From Phycisphaerales bacterium (lineage in GTDB: Bacteria > Planctomycetota > Phycisphaerae > Phycisphaerales > UBA1924): 64,000 bases of DNA. Positions 40,230 to 48,493 of this stretch are shown piece by piece. Position 1 is the stretch's first letter; every line of letters begins with the position of its first letter. Made by a program: the position numbers and the translations under genes. The stretch spans positions 1,162,268 through 1,226,267 of the forward strand of contig JAVJVK010000004.1 of assembly GCA_040221175.1 (NCBI GenBank). Direction: 5' to 3'. The notes below the pieces were generated by a model that saw nothing but the letters and a program-made list of their open reading frames with translations, was not told where the DNA came from and did not search any database.

Positions 40230-41030
40230 ATGACGATGATGCCAGACAATCCGACCGAGTTCAGCCAGCAGGTGGCCCAGATCCTGCGCCGCCTCCAGCC
40301 CGAGTTGACCATCGACTCGATCCGCGAGGACGAGTTGGTCATCGCCGGCCGCCGGCTGGACCTGATCAACCTCTTCCGCATCGTGAGCCATGATCCCCAG
40401 CGGGGCGTGGAGATCGTCGAGCACTACCTCGAGCAGCTCTTTGCCGGCGACCTGATGTACGTCAACGCCATGAGCTTCGACATCGCCCGGCCGCGGATCA
40501 TGCCGCGCATCCAGCCCGAGAGCATCTTCGAGAGCCTCAGCCGCCGCCTGGTGGCCCACACGCCCTTCGTCAACGGAGCCGTGGTGGTGTACGTGCTCGA
40601 CCTGCCCCAGATGACCGTGAGCATCACCACCGAGCAGCTCGTCCAGTGGGGCGTGAACATCGAAGAACTCGAGGACATCGCCCGAGAGAACCTCGACCTG
40701 TACGCGCCCGAAATGGACGTGCAACTCGTCGAGAGCCGCGAGGGCGGGACGGCCGCCATCCTGGCCGAGCAGGACGGCTACGACGCCGCCCGCCTGCTGC
40801 TGGGTAAGCTCTACCACCGCCTGGCCCCCTCGCTGGGCGGCGACTTCCTGGTGGCCATCCCCGCCCGCGACATGTTCGTCGCGCTCTCCCGTGAACCCGC
40901 CGAGTTCGTCCAACGCATCCAGGACCGCGTCCGCCAGGACTACGAGCGGCTGCCGTACCCGATCACCGATCAACTCTTCTACGTCACGCGTGACGGCGTG
41001 GCGGGGACCGGAGAGTCGAAGGCGGCATAA
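40230..41030 (+). CDS. DUF1444 (YtpQ-like) family protein
   Basis: 266 aa. The middle and end match the DUF1444 pattern: LVAHTPFVNGAVVVYVLDLPQ, TEQLVQWGVNIEELEDIARENL, DGYDAARLLLGKLYHRLAPSL, FLVAIPARDMFVAL. The family (B. subtilis YtpQ) has no known biochemical activity. ATG codons at 40230, 40236 and 40239 share the GGGGGG tract at 40222-40227; the exact start is uncertain. A TTG-start amidotransferase follows 34 nt later. Confidence 0.82.
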   Translation: MTMMPDNPTEFSQQVAQILRRLQPELTIDSIREDELVIAGRRLDLINLFRIVSHDPQRGVEIVEHYLEQLFAGDLMYVNAMSFDIARPRIMPRIQPESIFESLSRRLVAHTPFVNGAVVVYVLDLPQMTVSITTEQLVQWGVNIEELEDIARENLDLYAPEMDVQLVESREGGTAAILAEQDGYDAARLLLGKLYHRLAPSLGGDFLVAIPARDMFVALSREPAEFVQRIQDRVRQDYERLPYPITDQLFYVTRDGVAGTGESKAA

Positions 41031-41064
41031 CCGGCCCGGGCCACGGGCCCACTACCCTTGGGCC

Positions 41065-41754
41065 TTGATCCTGCTCATCGACAACTACGACTCGTTCACC
41101 TGGAACCTCGTCCAACGCCTGGGCGAGGTCGCACTGGCGCGCGGTGAAGTCCTCGAGCCCGGCGTCGGCCTGGTCGTCGCACGCAACGACGAGATCACGC
41201 CCGACCAGGCCGCCGCCCTCGACCCCTCGGGCATCGTCATCAGCCCCGGCCCGTGCACGCCCACCGAGGCCGGCGTGTCGGCGGCCATCATCGAACGCTT
41301 CGCGGGCGTGGTGCCCGTGCTGGGGGTGTGCCTGGGCTGCCAGGTCATGGCCCAGATGGACGGCCTGCCCGTCGCCCGCCACGACGTGCCCGTCCACGGC
41401 CGGACCAGCCCCGTGCACCACGACGGCTCGGGCGTGTTCGCCGGCCTGCCCAGCCCGATGGAGGCCGCCCGCTACCACTCGCTGGTCATCAAGGGCGAGA
41501 TCCTCCCACCCGTACCCGGCCGCGACGGATGGGCCATAACTGCCTGGACCGACGAGCCCACCGCAGACGGCGGCGCGCGCCGGGTGCTCATGGGCCTGCG
41601 CCGCGTCTGGGCCGATGTTGCCAGGGCCCCGCTGCTGGGCGTGCAGTTCCACCCCGAGAGTTATCTGACCCCTGAGGGCCCTGCGCTGCTGGGGAACTTC
41701 CTGGGAATGGTTGCTCGTCATCGACAAGCCGTCGCCGCCGCGACTGTCTCATGA
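41065..41754 (+). CDS. anthranilate/aminodeoxychorismate synthase glutamine amidotransferase
   Basis: 229 aa. LILLIDNYDSFTWNLVQ opens the protein at the only sensible start, TTG at 41065. Oxyanion motif VISPGPCTPTEAG, nucleophile Cys89 in GVCLGCQ (Cys where the common motif has His), and the His/Glu pair in VQFHPESYL complete the triad. It supplies ammonia from glutamine for tryptophan or folate synthesis (TrpG/PabA). No synthase component I gene is nearby. No ribosome site is evident before the TTG. Confidence 0.87.
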   Translation: MILLIDNYDSFTWNLVQRLGEVALARGEVLEPGVGLVVARNDEITPDQAAALDPSGIVISPGPCTPTEAGVSAAIIERFAGVVPVLGVCLGCQVMAQMDGLPVARHDVPVHGRTSPVHHDGSGVFAGLPSPMEAARYHSLVIKGEILPPVPGRDGWAITAWTDEPTADGGARRVLMGLRRVWADVARAPLLGVQFHPESYLTPEGPALLGNFLGMVARHRQAVAAATVS

Positions 41755-41782
41755 ATCGGGGAACATTCTCCGATTCTCGAGG

Positions 41783-41788
41783 TATACT
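41783..41788 (+). promoter_or_regulatory. -10-like TATACT directly before the Cys-rich gene
   Basis: TATACT ends 4 nt before the ATG at 41793. If used, the transcript would start at or just past that ATG, which would imply a near-leaderless message or a downstream start. There is no strong -35. Recorded because it conflicts with ordinary ribosome-site initiation. Confidence 0.3.
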
Positions 41789-41792
41789 CCCC

Positions 41793-42170
41793 ATGGTGAC
41801 ACCCGTCCGCTTCATCGCGTTGTTGGTGTCCCTGGCCGTCGTGCTGGCCGGGCCGGTATCAACGTGGGCCGCCACGGGCGATTGCTGCTGCGTCGAGACG
41901 GCCGCCCAGGTCGATGCCGACGTCGCGGATTCCTGCTGCGGATCGGATGCGCCCGCTGACCAGAATTCGCACGACGAAGAGCCGGGCGATTGCCCCAGCG
42001 ACTGCGACGCGTGCGTGTGGTGCGCCACCATGGGCCAGTTCGCCAAGATGAGCCGCCCCCCCCTGGGGCTTGACCTGCCCGATCCGCAGCCCGACGCGCT
42101 CACGGCACTCGAGCCGCAGAGCCACGCCATCGAGGCCCACTTCTCGCTGCTGCGTCCCCCGCGAGGCTGA
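41793..42170 (+). CDS. Cys-rich secreted protein preceding an ABC exporter
   Basis: 125 aa. Signal peptide 1-26 (cleavage after TWA). The mature N-terminal half holds eleven Cys in clusters: DCCCVE, DSCCGSD, DCPSDCDACVWC. The C-terminal half has none. The pattern suggests metal binding or disulfide knots. It precedes the membrane fusion/ABC genes by 82 nt. An ATG at 41751 overlaps the upstream TGA (ATGA) and would add 14 residues; GAGG ten bases before 41793 favours the shorter form. No family recognised. Confidence 0.65.
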   Translation: MVTPVRFIALLVSLAVVLAGPVSTWAATGDCCCVETAAQVDADVADSCCGSDAPADQNSHDEEPGDCPSDCDACVWCATMGQFAKMSRPPLGLDLPDPQPDALTALEPQSHAIEAHFSLLRPPRG

Positions 42171-42252
42171 ACGTCCGCACCCGCGTTGCGCGCCCGCCTT
42201 ATGGCGGTCGCGCGATGGTCCATGCGCAACGTTCACCCGCGGAGAGTCCGCC

Positions 42253-43770
42253 ATGAAACCTAAGTCTGTATTCGGGCGCATCCCGCCCTCGACGGCCGTC
42301 GCCGCCGGCGTCGCTGTCATGCTTGCCGGCATCGTTTTCTGGACCGCCGGCGAGAGCTTCACCCCGGCCACGCCGGTGCGCGTGGCGCCGGTGGTCTTCG
42401 AGGCATCGGCCGCCGAAACGCAAGCCGCCGAGCCCGGCGAACGCCAGCCCGCCGGCCAAGCCATCCAGGCCCCCGGATGGCTCGAGGCCGCCCCGTACTA
42501 CACCGCCGCCACCGCGCTGACCGACGGCGTGGTGGCCGAGGTGCTGGTGCTCGAGGGACAGACCGTCGAGAAGGGCCAGCCCGTCGCGCGGCTCGTACCC
42601 GACGACGCCACGATCGAGCTCGCAGCCGCCCAGGCCGACCTGGCAAGCGCACAGGCCGAACTGGCCGTCGCCGAAGCCAACCTCCGTGCCGCCCAGACCG
42701 ACTGGGACAACCCGATCGATCGCGAGCGCGCCGTCGCAGCCACGAAGGCCCAGCTCGCCGAGACCCGAGCCCAGCTCGCCCAGTTGCCCGCGCTGATCGA
42801 GACCGAGCGGGCGATGCTCAAGCAGATCGAGGCCGAGCTCGACCGCGCAAGCCGGGCCGAGCGGGGCGGGGCCGCCAACGAGCTGGAGGTCATCGTGCTC
42901 ACCCAGCGCGTGGCCGGCCAGCGGGCAACGCTGGAAGCGACCGAGCAGCGGCAGGCAATCCTCGAGGCCCAGCGCAACCGCCTGCAAGCCGAGGCCACCG
43001 CCGCCGAGCGAAACTACGAGCTGCGCATTATGGAAAAGCAGAACCTCGACCTTGCCCGCGCCAATGCCCAGCGAGCCGAGGCGGCCGTCCAGGTTGCACG
43101 GGCACGGCTTGACGAAGCACAACTCCGCGTCGATCGCCTGACCATCAACGCCCCGATCACGGGAGCCGTGCAACGTCGACTGAAGGTTCCCGGCGACAAG
43201 ATCATGCTGGGCATGGACGACCCGCACTCGGCCCACGTCGTGCACCTGTACGACCCGGCCAAGCTCCAGGTCCGCGTCGACGTGCCGCTGGCCGACGCGA
43301 GGCACATGTTCGTGGGCCAGGAGTGCGAGGTCATCGTCGAAGTGCTTCCCGACCAGACCTTCGAGGGCGTGGTCGATCGCATCACCTACGAGGCCGACCT
43401 GCAGAAGAACACGCTCCAGGCGAAGGTCCGCGTGCTCGATCCCTCGCCCCTGTTGCGGCCCGAGATGCTCACACGCGTGAAGTTCCTGCCCCGCGGCGGC
43501 GGCCAGCAGGAAGCGCCAGAGCTGGGCGACACCGCCATGCTCGTGCCCACGGGCGCCATCGACGGCGGCCGCGTGTGGGTCGTGCGCAACCGCCGCGGCG
43601 ACACGGGCAAGGCCTTCGCACAGGGCATCGAAGTGCTCGAGGACCTGGGCGACTACGCCCGCGTCCGCGGCGCGCTCCGATCAGGAGACCTGCTCGCGCT
43701 CGACACCACCAATCTCAACGACGGCGCTCGCGTGCGCATCGCTACAGGCAGCAAGGACAGCGACCAATGA
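42253..43770 (+). CDS. HlyD/MacA-type membrane fusion protein
   Basis: 505 aa. One N-terminal membrane segment (about 14-32), then a lipoyl-like half motif (TDGVVAEVLVLEGQTVEKGQPVARL), a long coiled-coil hairpin (about 120-290, repeats such as AAQADLASAQAELAVAEANL), the second lipoyl half (LTINAPITGAVQRRLKVPGDKI), and beta-barrel domains. It links an inner-membrane ABC exporter to the outer membrane. Its TGA overlaps the ATPase ATG (ATGA). Confidence 0.92.
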   Translation: MKPKSVFGRIPPSTAVAAGVAVMLAGIVFWTAGESFTPATPVRVAPVVFEASAAETQAAEPGERQPAGQAIQAPGWLEAAPYYTAATALTDGVVAEVLVLEGQTVEKGQPVARLVPDDATIELAAAQADLASAQAELAVAEANLRAAQTDWDNPIDRERAVAATKAQLAETRAQLAQLPALIETERAMLKQIEAELDRASRAERGGAANELEVIVLTQRVAGQRATLEATEQRQAILEAQRNRLQAEATAAERNYELRIMEKQNLDLARANAQRAEAAVQVARARLDEAQLRVDRLTINAPITGAVQRRLKVPGDKIMLGMDDPHSAHVVHLYDPAKLQVRVDVPLADARHMFVGQECEVIVEVLPDQTFEGVVDRITYEADLQKNTLQAKVRVLDPSPLLRPEMLTRVKFLPRGGGQQEAPELGDTAMLVPTGAIDGGRVWVVRNRRGDTGKAFAQGIEVLEDLGDYARVRGALRSGDLLALDTTNLNDGARVRIATGSKDSDQ

Positions 43771-44495
43771 CATTGATCAAATGCGAACAACTCACTCGTG
43801 AGTTCAAGAAGGGCGACGAGATCATCCGTCCGCTCGACGGGCTCGACCTGAACGTCCCCGCCGGCGAATTCATGGCCCTCATGGGCCCCAGCGGCAGCGG
43901 CAAGACCACGCTGCTGAACCTCATCGCCGGCATCGACAAGCCCACCAGCGGCAAGCTCATCATCGATGGAATCAACATCGCCGACCTCAGCCGCAACAAG
44001 CTGGCGGCCTGGCGCAGCGAAAACGTCGGCTACGTCTTCCAGCTCTACAACCTCGTGCCCGTGCTCACGGCCTTCGAGAACGTGGAGCTCCCACTGCTGC
44101 TGCACAAGCTCAGCCGGGCCGAGCGCCGCCAGCGCGTGCAGAAGGCCCTCGAAGACGTCGGCATCTCCGACCGGAGCGACCACTTCCCGCGACAGCTCTC
44201 GGGCGGCCAGGAGCAGCGGGTGGCCATCGCCCGCGCGATCGTCACCGACCCGACCATCCTCGTGGCCGACGAGCCCACGGGCGACCTGGACAAGCCCTCG
44301 GCCAAGTCCATCATGGAACTGCTCAGCCGCCTCAATCAGGAGCAGGGCAAGACCATCGTGATGGTGACCCACGACCCGGGTACCACCGACTACGCCACGC
44401 GCACGCTGCACCTGGACACCGGCAAGCTGGCCGGCGACATGACGCACGACCGAGCCGACGCGGACTCGAACGCCGCCGAGGAGGTGTTGGCATGA
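43767..44495 (+). CDS. ABC transporter ATP-binding protein (MacB/LolD type)
   Basis: 242 aa. Walker [11 protein letters not shown] loop [21 protein letters not shown], signature [14 protein letters not shown], Walker [13 protein letters not shown], and H loop VTHDP. The [12 protein letters not shown] segment is characteristic of the LolD/MacB/DevA exporter ATPases that work with FtsX-fold permeases. Both ends are coupled by ATGA overlaps to the fusion protein and the first permease. Confidence 0.96.
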
Positions 44496-45643
44496 ATATC
44501 TTCCGATTCGTCCCCTACATCGCAAAGCAGGCCTGGCGCCACCGCGTGCGTTCGGGCCTCACGCTCATGGGCATCGCCATCGCGATGTTCCTGTTTACGG
44601 CCGTGCAGGCCATGCGCAACGGCGTCGAGGCGGCCACCACCGCGACGGCCAACGACACCACGCTGGTGGTCTACCGCAAGGACCGCTTCTGCCCGGTCAC
44701 CAGCCAACTTCCCCAGGACTACCAGCGCCGCATCGAGTCGATCCCCGGCGTGGTGTCCGCCGTGCCCATGAAGGTCGTCGTGAGCAACTGCCGGACGAGC
44801 CTGGACGTGGTGACCTTCCGCGGCGTACCCAAGGACGACTTCATCGCCGCCCGGGGCGAAAAGTTCCAGGTCATCGACGGCAGCCTCGAAGACTGGAAGC
44901 GGCGCACCGACGCGGCGCTGCTGGGCGAGACCCTGGCCACCCGCCGGGGCCTGAAGGCCGGCCAGACCTTCGACGCCGCGGGCATTACCGCCTATGTCGC
45001 GGGCGTCATCCGCTCGAAGGATCCGCAAGACCACAACGTCGCCTACACCGCCCTGGAGTTCGTGCAGCTCGCCGGGCGAGACCAGTTGGGCATCGTCACG
45101 CAGTTCAACGTGAAGGTTGAAGACGCCAGCATGCTCGACCCCGTGGCCGAGGCCATCGACGATCAGTTCGCCCGCGCCCAGGACCCCACGCAGACGTTCG
45201 GTGAGAAGGCCTTCGTCGCGCGCATCGCCGACGACATCGTCGAACTGGTCGGCTTTGCCAACTGGCTGGGCATTGGGGCCCTGATCGCCGTGCTCGCGCT
45301 GGTGGGCAACGCCATCATCCTCAGCGTCCAGAGCCGCATCGCCGAGCACGCCGTGCTGCAGACCCTGGGCTTCAACGGCCGCCTGGTCGCGTTGCTCATC
45401 GTGGCAGAGGGCGTGCTCATCTCGCTCATCGGTGGCGTGCTGGGCGCGGCCGTCGCCATGCTCGTGGCGCGCTTCGGCAGCTTCGCGCTGTCGGTCGAGG
45501 GCCAGTCCATCCCCATCACCGCGAGTTGGCAGCTGCTGGCCGTGGGCGTGGGCGTGTGCGTAGCGCTGGGCGTGCTGGCGGGGCTGGTGCCCGCGTGGCA
45601 GGCCTCTCGCCGCGAGATCGCAACGTGCTTCCGGGCCGTGTAA
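44492..45643 (+). CDS. FtsX/MacB-type ABC permease (first)
   Basis: 383 aa. A membrane segment near the N-terminus (RSGLTLMGIAIAMFLFTAVQAM), a large periplasmic domain (about 45-255), then three C-terminal segments (GIGALIAVLALVGNAIILS, VALLIVAEGVLISLIGGVLG, LLAVGVGVCVALGVLAGLVP). This is the type VII ABC exporter fold. Two Cys in the periplasmic part (FCPV and NCRTS) could form a disulfide. Start ATGA-coupled to the ATPase. Confidence 0.92.
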   Translation: MNIFRFVPYIAKQAWRHRVRSGLTLMGIAIAMFLFTAVQAMRNGVEAATTATANDTTLVVYRKDRFCPVTSQLPQDYQRRIESIPGVVSAVPMKVVVSNCRTSLDVVTFRGVPKDDFIAARGEKFQVIDGSLEDWKRRTDAALLGETLATRRGLKAGQTFDAAGITAYVAGVIRSKDPQDHNVAYTALEFVQLAGRDQLGIVTQFNVKVEDASMLDPVAEAIDDQFARAQDPTQTFGEKAFVARIADDIVELVGFANWLGIGALIAVLALVGNAIILSVQSRIAEHAVLQTLGFNGRLVALLIVAEGVLISLIGGVLGAAVAMLVARFGSFALSVEGQSIPITASWQLLAVGVGVCVALGVLAGLVPAWQASRREIATCFRAV

Positions 45644-45655
45644 GAAAGGAAGCCG

Positions 45656-46834
45656 ATGCGGCTGAGACAACTCCCCTTCGAATACGCCTACCGCAACCTC
45701 GGCCGCAGCCGCGTGCGCATGCTCGCCAGCATCATCGGCGCCACGCTCGTGGTGCTACTGGTGCTGTCCGCCGCTGGCTTCGTCCGTGGCATGCAACTGA
45801 CGCTCACCCAGGGCAAGGGCCTGCACGAGAACGTCATCATCATGAGCACCGGCAGCGAGGAAGCGCTGGAGCGCAGCCAGATCGACGCCTCCACCGCGGG
45901 CCAGGCCATCGCCAGCATCCCGGGCCTGGTTGAGCGCGGCGGGGTCACCTACGCCTCGCCCGAGATCAACATCGCCCTGCCGGTCAACACCGACGCCAGC
46001 GACACCACGCCGCGCCAGGCCGTCATCCGCGGCGTGCGCCCCGTCGCGTTCCTGGTGCACAGCGAGGTCGAGATCGTCGAGGGACGCCAGCCCCGCAGCG
46101 GGCAGGACGAGATCATCGTCGGCTCGCTGGCCGCCACGCGCCTGGGCCTGCCCGACGAGCGCCTGGCCGTCGGCAACACGCTGTACTTTGACAACCGCGA
46201 CTGGACCATCGTCGGCAAGTTCCGCGCGCCCAACACGGTGATGGACGCCGAGATCTGGATGCCCATCATCGACTTGCAGGTGGCCACCAAGCGCGAAGCC
46301 ACCCTGTCGGCGGTCGTGGTGAGCCTCGACACCGCGCGCTTCTCCGACGTCGACGTCTTCGCCAAGAGCCGGCTCGACCTCGAAATCACCGCCATGCGCG
46401 AGGCCGACTACTACGCTTCGATCGCCGCGTTCTATCGGCCCATCCGCATCATGGTCATCGTCACCGCCTCGCTCATCGCGCTCGGCGGCCTGCTGGGCGG
46501 GCTGAACACCATGTACGCCAGCTTTGCCGCCCGCGTACGCGAAATCGGCACGCTCCAGGCCTTCGGCTTCACGCGCGCCGCCATCGTCACCAGCCTCAGC
46601 GAAGAGTCGCTCTTCGCCGCCGCCATCGGCACCATCTTCGGGGCCATCCTGGGCCTCTTGCTGCTCGATGGCCTCGCCGTCAAGTTCTCCATGGGCGCCT
46701 TCGCGCTCACGCTCGACGCGCCGGTCATGCTCGCGGGCATCGCTGGCGGCGTGCTCGTGGGCCTGGTGGGCGCCATCCCGCCAGCCATTCGCTGCCTGCG
46801 TTTACCCATTCCCCAAGCCCTCAAGATGCATTGA
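45656..46834 (+). CDS. FtsX/MacB-type ABC permease (second)
   Basis: 392 aa with the same layout: N-terminal segment (MLASIIGATLVVLLVLSAAG), periplasmic MacB-like domain, and C-terminal segments around 270-385 (VIVTASLIALGGLLGGLNTM, FAAAIGTIFGAILGLLLL). It starts 12 nt after the first permease, so the transporter is probably a heterodimer with one ATPase gene. The loop VREIGTLQAFGFTRAAI is the conserved coupling segment. Confidence 0.92.
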   Translation: MRLRQLPFEYAYRNLGRSRVRMLASIIGATLVVLLVLSAAGFVRGMQLTLTQGKGLHENVIIMSTGSEEALERSQIDASTAGQAIASIPGLVERGGVTYASPEINIALPVNTDASDTTPRQAVIRGVRPVAFLVHSEVEIVEGRQPRSGQDEIIVGSLAATRLGLPDERLAVGNTLYFDNRDWTIVGKFRAPNTVMDAEIWMPIIDLQVATKREATLSAVVVSLDTARFSDVDVFAKSRLDLEITAMREADYYASIAAFYRPIRIMVIVTASLIALGGLLGGLNTMYASFAARVREIGTLQAFGFTRAAIVTSLSEESLFAAAIGTIFGAILGLLLLDGLAVKFSMGAFALTLDAPVMLAGIAGGVLVGLVGAIPPAIRCLRLPIPQALKMH

Positions 46835-46866
46835 GTACCATTGCACCAACCGAAAGGAGCCTCCCC

Positions 46867-47412
46867 ATGAAGTTCACACGCACCATCGCCGCCGCCTCCA
46901 TCGCCGGCCTTGCCCTCGGCCTGGTCGCCTGCAAGGAAGAGTCGACGAGTTCGACCGACGGCGCCTCGACGTCCAGCGCCGCTCCGGTCTCGGCCGAGTG
47001 GAGGCTCGCCTCCATGCCAGCCGATGCGCAGGGCGTCAAGAGCATCAAGGACACCGCCGCCGAAGGAGACACCGTCACCGTCCGCGGCATCATCGGCGGC
47101 CGCAAGGACGCATTGAGCAAGGACTCGGCGTTCTTCGTGATGGTTGATCCCGCACTGGAAAACGTCTGCGTCAGCGAAGACGACCACTGCGACACGCCGT
47201 GGGACTACTGCTGCGCCATGCCCGAAGACATCCAGGCCAACAGCGCCACGGTGCAACTCGTCGATGCCGAGGGAAACCCGCTGGAGTTTGATCTCTCGGG
47301 CCAGGGCATCTCGCCGCTGGACGAAGTCGTGGTCGTCGGCACCGTCGCGGCCCGTCCGACGCCGCAGGTGCTCACGATCCGCGCCACCGGGCTACATCGC
47401 GTGGCCCAGTAG
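46867..47412 (+). CDS. lipoprotein with Cys cluster, last gene of the exporter locus
   Basis: 181 aa, GGAGCC upstream of the ATG at 46867. Lipobox GLVAC with Cys22. A Ser/Thr-rich linker, then an OB-fold-like beta domain (GDTVTVRGIIGGRKDAL, VVVVGTVAARP). It contains a Cys cluster ENVCVSEDDHCDTPWDYCC that could bind a metal or haem-like ligand. It lies 32 nt after the second permease. No family recognised; its place suggests a role in the exporter, possibly as the periplasmic sensor or donor. Confidence 0.72.
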   Translation: MKFTRTIAAASIAGLALGLVACKEESTSSTDGASTSSAAPVSAEWRLASMPADAQGVKSIKDTAAEGDTVTVRGIIGGRKDALSKDSAFFVMVDPALENVCVSEDDHCDTPWDYCCAMPEDIQANSATVQLVDAEGNPLEFDLSGQGISPLDEVVVVGTVAARPTPQVLTIRATGLHRVAQ

Positions 47413-47425
47413 GCCATAATGCCTC

Positions 47426-48493
47426 ATGTCCGATGCGCAGAAGATCACCGATGCCCTGAGCGAATTGCACGCGCGGTACGCCGGCCTGGATGACGGCGAG
47501 CTGGCCGACTACATCCCCGAGCTGGCCAACGTCGACCCCTCGCTGTTCTCCATCGCCGTCGCGACGGCCGACGGGAACGTCTGCGCTGTCGGCGATCACG
47601 AGACCCCGTTCACCATCCAGTCCTCCTCCAAGCCCTTTACCTACGGCCACGCGCTGGGCATGCACGGCCGCAGCATGGTGCTCAGCCGCGTGGGCGTCGA
47701 GCCCACGGGCGACGCGTTCAACTCCATCATCAAGCTCGACGCGGCCAACCGCCCCCACAACCCCTGCGTCAACAGCGGCGCCATCGCCGTCACCAGCCTG
47801 CTGCGAGAGATGGACGCCACCGCAAGCGTCAAGCAACTGCTGGACAGCTTCAACCGCTTCGCCGGCCGAAAGCTCAGCGTCGACCTGCCCGTCTTCACCA
47901 GCGAGCGCACGCACGGCAACCGCAACCGCGCCATTGCCTACCTCATGCTGCACTTCGGCATGATCGAGGGCGACGTCGATGCCATCCTCGACCTCTACTT
48001 TCAGCAGTGCGCCATCCAGGTCACATGCAAGGACCTGGCCGTCATGGCGGGCACGCTGGCAAACGGCGGGATCAATCCCGTCACCGGCGAGCGCGCCCTC
48101 GACGCCGCCTACGTCCGCGACGTCCTCACCGTCATGCAGACCTGCGGCATGTACGACTACTCGGGACAATGGGCATACACCGTGGGGCTGCCGGCCAAGA
48201 GCGGCATCTCGGGCGCCATCTTCGCCGTCGTTCCGGGCAAGCTCGGCATCGCCTGCTACTCGCCCAAGGTCGACCACCACGGCCACAGCGTGCGCGGCCT
48301 GCGGGTCTTCGAAGACCTCTCCCACGAGTTCGGGCTGCACTTGTTCGAGGTCGACCACCAGGACGGCACCGCCGCCATCGACTCGATGTTCGAGCGCCGC
48401 ACGCCCGGCGCCCAGCCAACCACCGATGCGCTTCCCGAGAGTCCAACGGCATACACGCCCGATCGCGGGCGTGCTCCGGAACACTCAGAGTAA
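47426..48493 (+). CDS. glsA: glutaminase A
   Basis: 355 aa, longer than the typical ~310 owing to a C-terminal extension. Active-site Ser in IQSSSKPFTYGHAL, plus FNSIIKLD, NPCVNSGAIAV, RNRAIAYLM and PAKSGISGAIFAVVPGKLGI, all glutaminase signatures. It deamidates glutamine to glutamate and ammonia. It begins 13 nt after the lipoprotein gene, so it could be co-transcribed, but a link to the exporter is not expected. Confidence 0.95.
   Translation: MSDAQKITDALSELHARYAGLDDGELADYIPELANVDPSLFSIAVATADGNVCAVGDHETPFTIQSSSKPFTYGHALGMHGRSMVLSRVGVEPTGDAFNSIIKLDAANRPHNPCVNSGAIAVTSLLREMDATASVKQLLDSFNRFAGRKLSVDLPVFTSERTHGNRNRAIAYLMLHFGMIEGDVDAILDLYFQQCAIQVTCKDLAVMAGTLANGGINPVTGERALDAAYVRDVLTVMQTCGMYDYSGQWAYTVGLPAKSGISGAIFAVVPGKLGIACYSPKVDHHGHSVRGLRVFEDLSHEFGLHLFEVDHQDGTAAIDSMFERRTPGAQPTTDALPESPTAYTPDRGRAPEHSE

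Follow-up and report, generated by a model that had tools for sequence, protein, structure and literature searches.

A Cys-rich leader reading frame heads a conserved planctomycete operon for a putative type VII ABC metal exporter

The present analysis concerns six co-directional genes at positions 41793-47412 of a 64,000-nucleotide stretch of DNA from a Phycisphaerales bacterium (hereafter the window; positions 1162268-1226267 of contig C4 in a genome of 3.44 Mb). From their sequences, we consider it fairly probable that the locus encodes a transition-metal exporter (copper or silver most likely, zinc or cadmium possible) run by a cotranslational switch in a Cys-rich leader open reading frame (ORF). 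The features that carry this proposal are a conserved operon with the leader at its head, a ruler-like spacing between leader cysteines and a Pro-Pro pair (PP), a C-terminal leader motif, RNA structure behind the leader, invariant cysteines, and a predicted OB fold. The gene cluster is real and conserved, and its arrangement is common to many planctomycete bacteria. This arrangement is not chance, because the lipoprotein gene adjoins the exporter in 36/36 near loci and a Cys-rich secreted ORF stands upstream in 78/79 loci, as compared with a single one in each of three control regions. An earlier note on this DNA had listed the same six genes, and ORF and family scans returned the same content, order, and strand. 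They also returned the same joints: ATGA overlaps between the fusion protein and ATPase genes and between the ATPase and permease 1 genes, and a 12-nt gap between the permease genes. The hypothesis of a metal- or thiol-related export or sensing system, offered in that note, gains support from the sequence comparisons, and nothing that refutes it was found for the lipoprotein.

Three samples underlie the counts. The near set of 61 genomes yielded 36 loci, namely 35 relatives and the window's own. A CxxPWDYCC scan of species genomes gave 457 stretches, of which 446 were confirmed and the best 80 loci kept. The distant set holds 40 loci found through distant lipoprotein homologues. All five pump genes are present at 35 of the near loci, L060 being cut by a contig end, and at 67 of the 80 further loci; of the other 13, contig ends truncate 12, and in L147 the genes break off at a 100-N run inside permease 1. 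The pump is present at 35/40 distant loci, two of which repeat L130 and L131. Furthermore, permease 1 searched alone was recovered from exactly the 36/61 near-set genomes that have a lipoprotein homologue (the window's genome included) and was absent from the other 25. A profile search placed lipoprotein homologues in 116/392 genomes of the phylum, and the relatives found through the lipoprotein are mostly labelled Phycisphaerae or Planctomycetota. The earlier note had taken lipoprotein homologues lying mostly away from such transporters as grounds for refutation; in this genome-neighbourhood comparison they lie mostly with one, apart from five exceptions named below.

Leaders were counted over 79 non-redundant loci by one fixed rule: an export signal, called by a hydrophobic-N-terminus heuristic (no SignalP), plus at least six cysteines in clusters. 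The same rule that found the 78 leaders upstream of the operon found 1/79 on the opposite strand, 1/72 downstream, and 1/28 further upstream. In the distant set, 31/35 loci have a leader upstream, as compared with 1/35 on the opposite strand. The leader remains first where an outer-membrane efflux protein (OEP) gene comes second (PF02321 in 5/5 scanned). It is also first in 15 distant operons ordered leader, permease 2, lipoprotein, fusion protein, ATPase, and permease 1, with the five pump genes in 15/15. Third codon positions are the most divergent in 10/10 pairs of related leaders, as expected of a translated ORF.

Sorted by their ends, the 78 leaders comprise 51 of class I and 27 of class II. 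Mean column identity in class I is 19%, and the only invariant residues are the start, C71, and PP, the invariance of PP following in part from the class definition. Counted between the last Cys motif and the residue that precedes PP, the distance has a median of 43 and lies within 40-46 in 48/51 class I leaders; its spread (median absolute deviation) is 1, as compared with 4 for other leader spacings. Both Cys proteins had been considered as envelope components, and for the leader we rejected this, because its body diverges while the Cys-PP ruler and the C terminus are kept. The two Cys-rich envelope proteins that the earlier note saw bracketing the exporter are not equivalent: the lipoprotein is the pump's partner, and the 125-aa protein looks like a translated regulatory leader, judging by its sequence and by analogy to CutF, CruR, and CopL. 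The latter protein has nine cysteines (31-33, 48, 49, 67, 71, 74, and 77) and not eleven as counted before.

Class II leaders (n = 55, of which 27 are from the main set and 28 from the distant set) are without the basic-PP end. PP occurs in the last 10 residues of 2/55 and in the last 15 of 15/55, leaving 40/55 without it. Leu stands three before the stop in 42/55, and 48/55 end in I, V, or C, giving mostly L-x-[I/V/C]-stop; because the classes were sorted by their ends, these tallies are descriptive and not tests, except for the 28 distant leaders, which were chosen solely by the absence of basic-PP. For the 27 in the main set, the median distance between the end of the Cys motif and the stop is 66 residues (10-90%: 63.6-72). 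By its sequence, the L-x-[I/V/C]-stop end is possibly a new arrest motif. A hydrophobic arrest sequence is also found in ErmCL, as its IFVI end. Stop-adjacent motifs of other sequence (DGMK-stop, NAP-stop, and NSP-stop) are described for sec leaders (PMC10987492). We suggest, tentatively and as something that may well prove wrong, that Planctomycetota control a previously undescribed Cys-equipped type VII ABC metal exporter through two kinds of leader. One would stall at RPP; in the other, the stop-touching L-x-[I/V/C]-stop about 66 residues past the last Cys motif would cause metal-dependent arrest at or next to termination.

The RNA behind the leader is structured. In the window, where 82 nt separate the leader from the fusion protein gene, the 95 nt at 42168-42262 fold with -46.6 kcal/mol (z -4.50; 0/200 shuffles as stable), and the helix begins at the UGA, with the next gene's Shine-Dalgarno in a second, small hairpin. 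In a 156-nt fold (z -2.38; 4/200 shuffles as stable) the main hairpin is retained; the small hairpin is lost, and its CGCGG pairs with the leader's last codons, lengthening the main hairpin. Across loci, the 75 nt past leader stops have a mean z of -1.05 (class I) and -1.76 (class II), and the control means are -0.09 upstream of leaders, 0.69 after permease 2, -0.58 after the lipoprotein, and -0.04 after the fusion protein. Leader-stop RNA folds better than the first three of these control points (p 1.6e-8, 8e-13, and 5e-4, respectively, values that are overstated because the loci are related). On the other side of the leader, a -10-like site lies within 60 nt upstream of 38/78 leaders (shuffle mean 9.45, maximum 16 in 200 shuffles); this promoter test and the stem test below were run against shuffles and measure enrichment, not function. 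As many as 27 of the 38 sites stand 4-12 nt before the start codon, which fits a leader that is the first gene, with a very short 5' untranslated region or none.

The lipoprotein has no Pfam or NCBIfam family, its single Pfam match being at E 0.14, far below the cutoff. Unconserved cysteines had been named in the earlier note as a further ground for refutation; here C108, P111, W112, D113, Y114, C115, and C116 are invariant in 36 aligned copies (C-x2-PWDYCC). The nearest Cys ahead of C108 is 7-8 residues off in 33/36 and 9 in one, with an extra closer Cys in the other two, and Asp stands two residues before C108 in 34/36. In an AlphaFold2 (AF2) model (pLDDT 91.0), the Cys cluster follows strand 66-70 and precedes helix 96-101. 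Structure comparison of this model returned OB-fold chains (Z up to 9.6, 94 residues, rmsd 3.5); Foldseek gave YgiW (1nnx) at rank 8 with E 4.6e-3 and no match at E 0.001 or better, and the best hit of a PDB sequence search had an E of only 0.39. On the model, the lipoprotein is thus predicted to be a five-stranded OB-fold barrel. CusF is a small periplasmic OB-fold copper chaperone and is not known as a Cys-cluster lipoprotein. The role proposed here, that of a small OB-fold protein serving a metal exporter in the periplasm, would resemble that of CusF. CusF is absent among the fold matches listed, and the lipoprotein has no Pfam match, neither of which argues against membership of the CusF family. 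Seven of the 36 lipoproteins (L067, L069, L071, L072, L074, L077, and L079) carry two such domains per chain. In these two-domain chains, PWDYCC is missing from the first domain, whose cysteines follow another pattern.

On family matches and modelling, the pump appears to be a type VII ABC transporter (MacB/Lol/FtsX): the families occur in both permeases, and the permease 1 model shows four transmembrane helices and a large domain. In this AF2 model (pLDDT 80.8) the extracytoplasmic domain lies between the first transmembrane helix and three more. Within this domain, Cys67 and Cys100 are invariant in 85/85 sequences, and Met46 and His135 of permease 2 are invariant in 90/90, near duplicates being kept in both counts. 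The permease 1 profile matches MacB, LolC, LolE, and LolF chains, and LolD and DarD are the nearest models for the ATPase. With MacAB-TolC, the locus shares a fusion protein, a MacB_PCD/FtsX permease, an ABC ATPase, and, in some loci, an OEP gene. It differs in the separate ATPase, the two permeases, the extra lipoprotein of predicted OB fold, and the Cys pair of permease 1; MacAB-TolC proper was ruled out, as ATPase and permeases are separate ORFs and not one fused chain. With LolCDE, it shares a LolD-like ATPase and two FtsX permeases. LolCDE proper was ruled out by the fusion protein, with OEP in other loci, and by scores below the equivalog cutoffs (231.2 bits vs 307.75 for LolD; 61.6 and 17.3 vs 362.45 for LolCE). 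A second, weaker relative of permease 1 (275.6 bits) is found in a genus genome at G001:C120:45127-46266, on a contig other than that of the operon.

Table 1. Positions of the genes and candidate control elements in the window
Feature	Position	Strand	Remarks
Promoter-like element GGAACA-17 nt-TATACT (candidate)	41760..41788	+	Ends 4 nt before leader ATG; sequence match
Leader ORF, 125 aa	41793..42170	+	Hydrophobic N-terminal export signal, CPSDCDACVWC, then 43 aa, then RPPRG-stop
R121-P122-P123 codons, candidate arrest site	42153..42161	+	PP invariant in 51 class I leaders
Hairpin from leader UGA stop codon	42168..42235	.	Predicted fold of 42168-42262
Stretch with GGAG Shine-Dalgarno of fusion protein gene	42239..42251	.	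Second small hairpin in 95-nt fold
Membrane fusion protein (HlyD/CusB type, RND_mfp)	42253..43770	+	PF13437, PF16576, TIGR01730 above cutoffs
ABC ATPase (LolD/MacB/DevA type)	43767..44495	+	PF00005; best NCBIfam is LolD, below cutoff
Permease 1, MacB_PCD + FtsX	44492..45643	+	Both families above cutoff
Permease 2, MacB_PCD + FtsX	45656..46834	+	Both families above cutoff
OB-fold lipoprotein (predicted fold), 181 aa	46867..47412	+	CVSEDDHCDTPWDYCC motif at 47167-47214

The leader is best compared with CutF of Rhodobacter capsulatus, a copper-responsive leader that is likewise secreted, shorter than 150 aa, and equipped with a Cys motif and a C-terminal PP about 45 aa apart (PMC9973294). CutF is also first in its operon, with a short gap and a stem-loop ahead of the next gene's Shine-Dalgarno; it precedes a multicopper oxidase, whereas the leader here precedes a type VII ABC exporter (PMC9973294). 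The rules given there for CutF-like proteins are a length below 150 aa, an N-terminal signal peptide, PP in the last 15 residues, and a same-strand gene within 1000 nt (PMC9973294). The window leader agrees with each of them (125 aa, hydrophobic N terminus by the heuristic, RPPRG end, next gene 82 nt downstream), and the PP rule excludes the 40 class II leaders that are without it. No shared sequence family with CutF is detectable; the family scan returned no Pfam family for the window leader and no similarity to CutF/DUF2946, the jackhmmer search of that paper not being repeated. CruR of Bordetella pertussis (DUF2946) is also an upstream ORF at the head of metal operons, with CXXC and a C-terminal RAPP 45 residues apart (PMC9426467). 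It differs in that copper switches off a TonB-dependent transporter operon via Rho across a 162-bp gap (PMC9426467), and its DUF2946 model has no match to the window leader. CopL (NF033807; Xanthomonas/Stenotrophomonas) is a small protein rich in Cys that is required in cis ahead of copper genes (PMC9973294), and its HMM similarity to the leaders is weak (5/51 class I). The Sec-related arrest leaders are secreted upstream ORFs with conserved C termini, some of which touch the stop codon, and one of them, uA_LPPP, is reported from Phycisphaerales among others (PMC10987492). However, these precede sec/yidC, and their motifs (RAPP-like, LPPP, NSP-, NAP-, and DGMK-stop) are unlike the class II end (PMC10987492).

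The metal is likely a transition metal, with copper probably the first choice by analogy, because the genes behind Cys-rich leaders of this type are mostly copper genes (PMC9973294), CopL_fam matches some leaders, CruR homologues are reported in a few Planctomycetes (PMC9426467), and CusA/CzcA and P1B genes lie nearby. The CusA/CzcA cutoff is passed in L072, L074, and L157, where the pump is at most 6.1 kb away from the leader (in L072 the two are on opposite strands); for the resistance-nodulation-division (RND) pump of L069, the highest score comes from a general multidrug RND model. In L071 (by HMM) and in L074 and L077 (by motif only), a class II leader is preceded by an ORF with P1B ATPase motifs, which stops 40-58 nt short of it. 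In these three loci, an RND-family gene is seen further upstream of the P1B-motif ORF (CusA/CzcA above cutoff in L074). A shared neighbour that would name the metal was also sought, and flank clustering gave an RND pump cluster in 6/78 loci, four of which (L069, L072, L074, and L157) were scanned with RND models.

In the mechanism that we infer, arrest, metal binding, the identity of the metal, the sign of regulation, and the substrate are all proposals. Synthesis would begin with the Cys-rich leader, whose chain would enter the Sec channel. With the ribosome at the C-terminal RPP, the Cys motif would lie at or beyond the membrane, since about 43 residues separate the two. Metal on these cysteines could then alter how long the ribosome pauses at RPP or, in class II, at the stop. 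While it pauses, the ribosome would mask the base of the stop-codon hairpin, and in this way it would govern whether the fusion protein gene's Shine-Dalgarno is accessible. The genes that follow would encode a MacB/Lol-like type VII ABC pump; its two permeases are separate chains, and it includes a fusion protein and, at other loci, an outer-membrane channel of its own. In the periplasm, the metal may be caught or handed on by the OB-fold lipoprotein and the permease 1 Cys pair. For an exporter, induction by metal (as in the case of CutF) rather than shut-off (as in that of CruR) is a natural guess.

Several observations weigh against this scheme. Few leaders have a stem placed exactly on the stop codon, namely 6/51 of class I (shuffle mean 0.7), 0/27 of class II (0.4), and 3/29 distant ones (0.4), so that this form is not general; the six class I stems use five different 5' arms. 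In the genus relatives, the 75-nt z values are weak (L046 -0.5, L047 -1.3, L048 -1.2), and the kinship of the loci inflates every p-value given above. No leader was found at L153, L178, L180, L185, and L191. The Cys clusters of the leader are conserved, and the exact positions mostly are not beyond the genus: columns are kept 9/9 in three genus pairs, but 5/13 in the comparison with L048 and 6/13 in another pair. CopL_fam scores 17.8 bits on the window leader, below the cutoff of 40; its matches among class I leaders have E up to 0.1 (best 4e-06), the curated cutoff having been compared for the window copy. Membership of the leader in DUF2946 was rejected, as that family matches 1/51 class I leaders, at E 0.098. 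As to the metal, the L071 P1B ATPase scores above the cutoffs of the general heavy-metal and Cd-type models and narrowly below that of the copper one. Finally, 5/40 distant lipoprotein homologues (L188, L189, L194, L195, and L196; 29-145 bits) are without this transporter nearby. These five are possibly paralogues with a different role.

The leader could instead be a periplasmic metal-buffering protein, similar to a metallothionein or chaperone, that works with the pump and whose position and C terminus have no regulatory meaning. Leaders are indeed secreted, carry 6 to 15 cysteines after the signal, and adjoin the pump, and CutF was itself initially conjectured to be a Cu chaperone (PMC9426467). 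We regard this as unlikely: a buffering protein does not account for a leader body conserved at only 19% whereas the Cys-PP distance and the stop-adjacent residues are kept, for a leader that is first in the operon whatever gene comes next, or for RNA structure after its stop codon. It is likewise rather improbable that the pump is a Lol/Dar-like exporter of lipoproteins or peptides whose cargo is the Cys-rich lipoprotein, with metals involved only indirectly. The nearness of the ATPase to LolD and DarD, the matches of permease 1 to LolC/E/F, MacB, and related chains, and the constant company of the lipoprotein gene at the near loci would suit such an exporter. However, the fusion protein and, in some loci, the OEP channel argue for a tripartite conduit, the CutF-like leader and adjacent metal pumps point to metals, and the L075 lipoprotein is without a lipobox Cys.

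Cys pairs throughout the system would also suit a response to thiol/disulfide (redox) stress, in which periplasmic oxidation is registered by the leader and the substrate of the pump is a thiol compound or its adduct; RAPP-type upstream ORFs precede thioredoxin/DsbA genes as well (PMC12992588). In contrast, the linked genes in several loci are metal pumps, and three families recur in at least five flanks (including one in nine loci and one in five), none of them looking like a redox enzyme (two judged by eye). To us, this explanation has little probability.

CutF and CruR, the studied metal-responsive nascent leaders, are proteobacterial in the accounts cited (PMC9973294, PMC9426467). Metal control by a nascent leader, if true, would here operate in another phylum and before an ABC exporter to which no function has been assigned. 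More than 100 natural leader variants in Cys site, spacer, and C terminus are available for comparison, and the ends of class II supply a short candidate motif for arrest near the stop codon. The lipoprotein, with its PWDYCC, its predicted OB fold, and no Pfam family, would gain a function. A literature search, with subscription journals largely and preprints wholly outside its scope, turned up no paper on this operon among the records listed.

Among the best 80 loci, most of which are labelled Planctomycetota or a subgroup of it, lone metagenome-assembled genomes are labelled Pseudomonadales (L140), Lentisphaerae (L157), and Leptolyngbya (L153), by record label only. L140 and L157 hold the whole operon with a class II leader, and both transfer and mis-binning are possible. 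In the window, an ORF at 40891-41754 that by eye looks like a TrpG/PabA-type glutamine amidotransferase lies on the same strand and ends 38 nt before the leader. On the other side, a glutaminase gene (PF04960) at 47426-48493 starts 13 nt past the lipoprotein gene and is so placed in 5/36 loci, all of the same genus.

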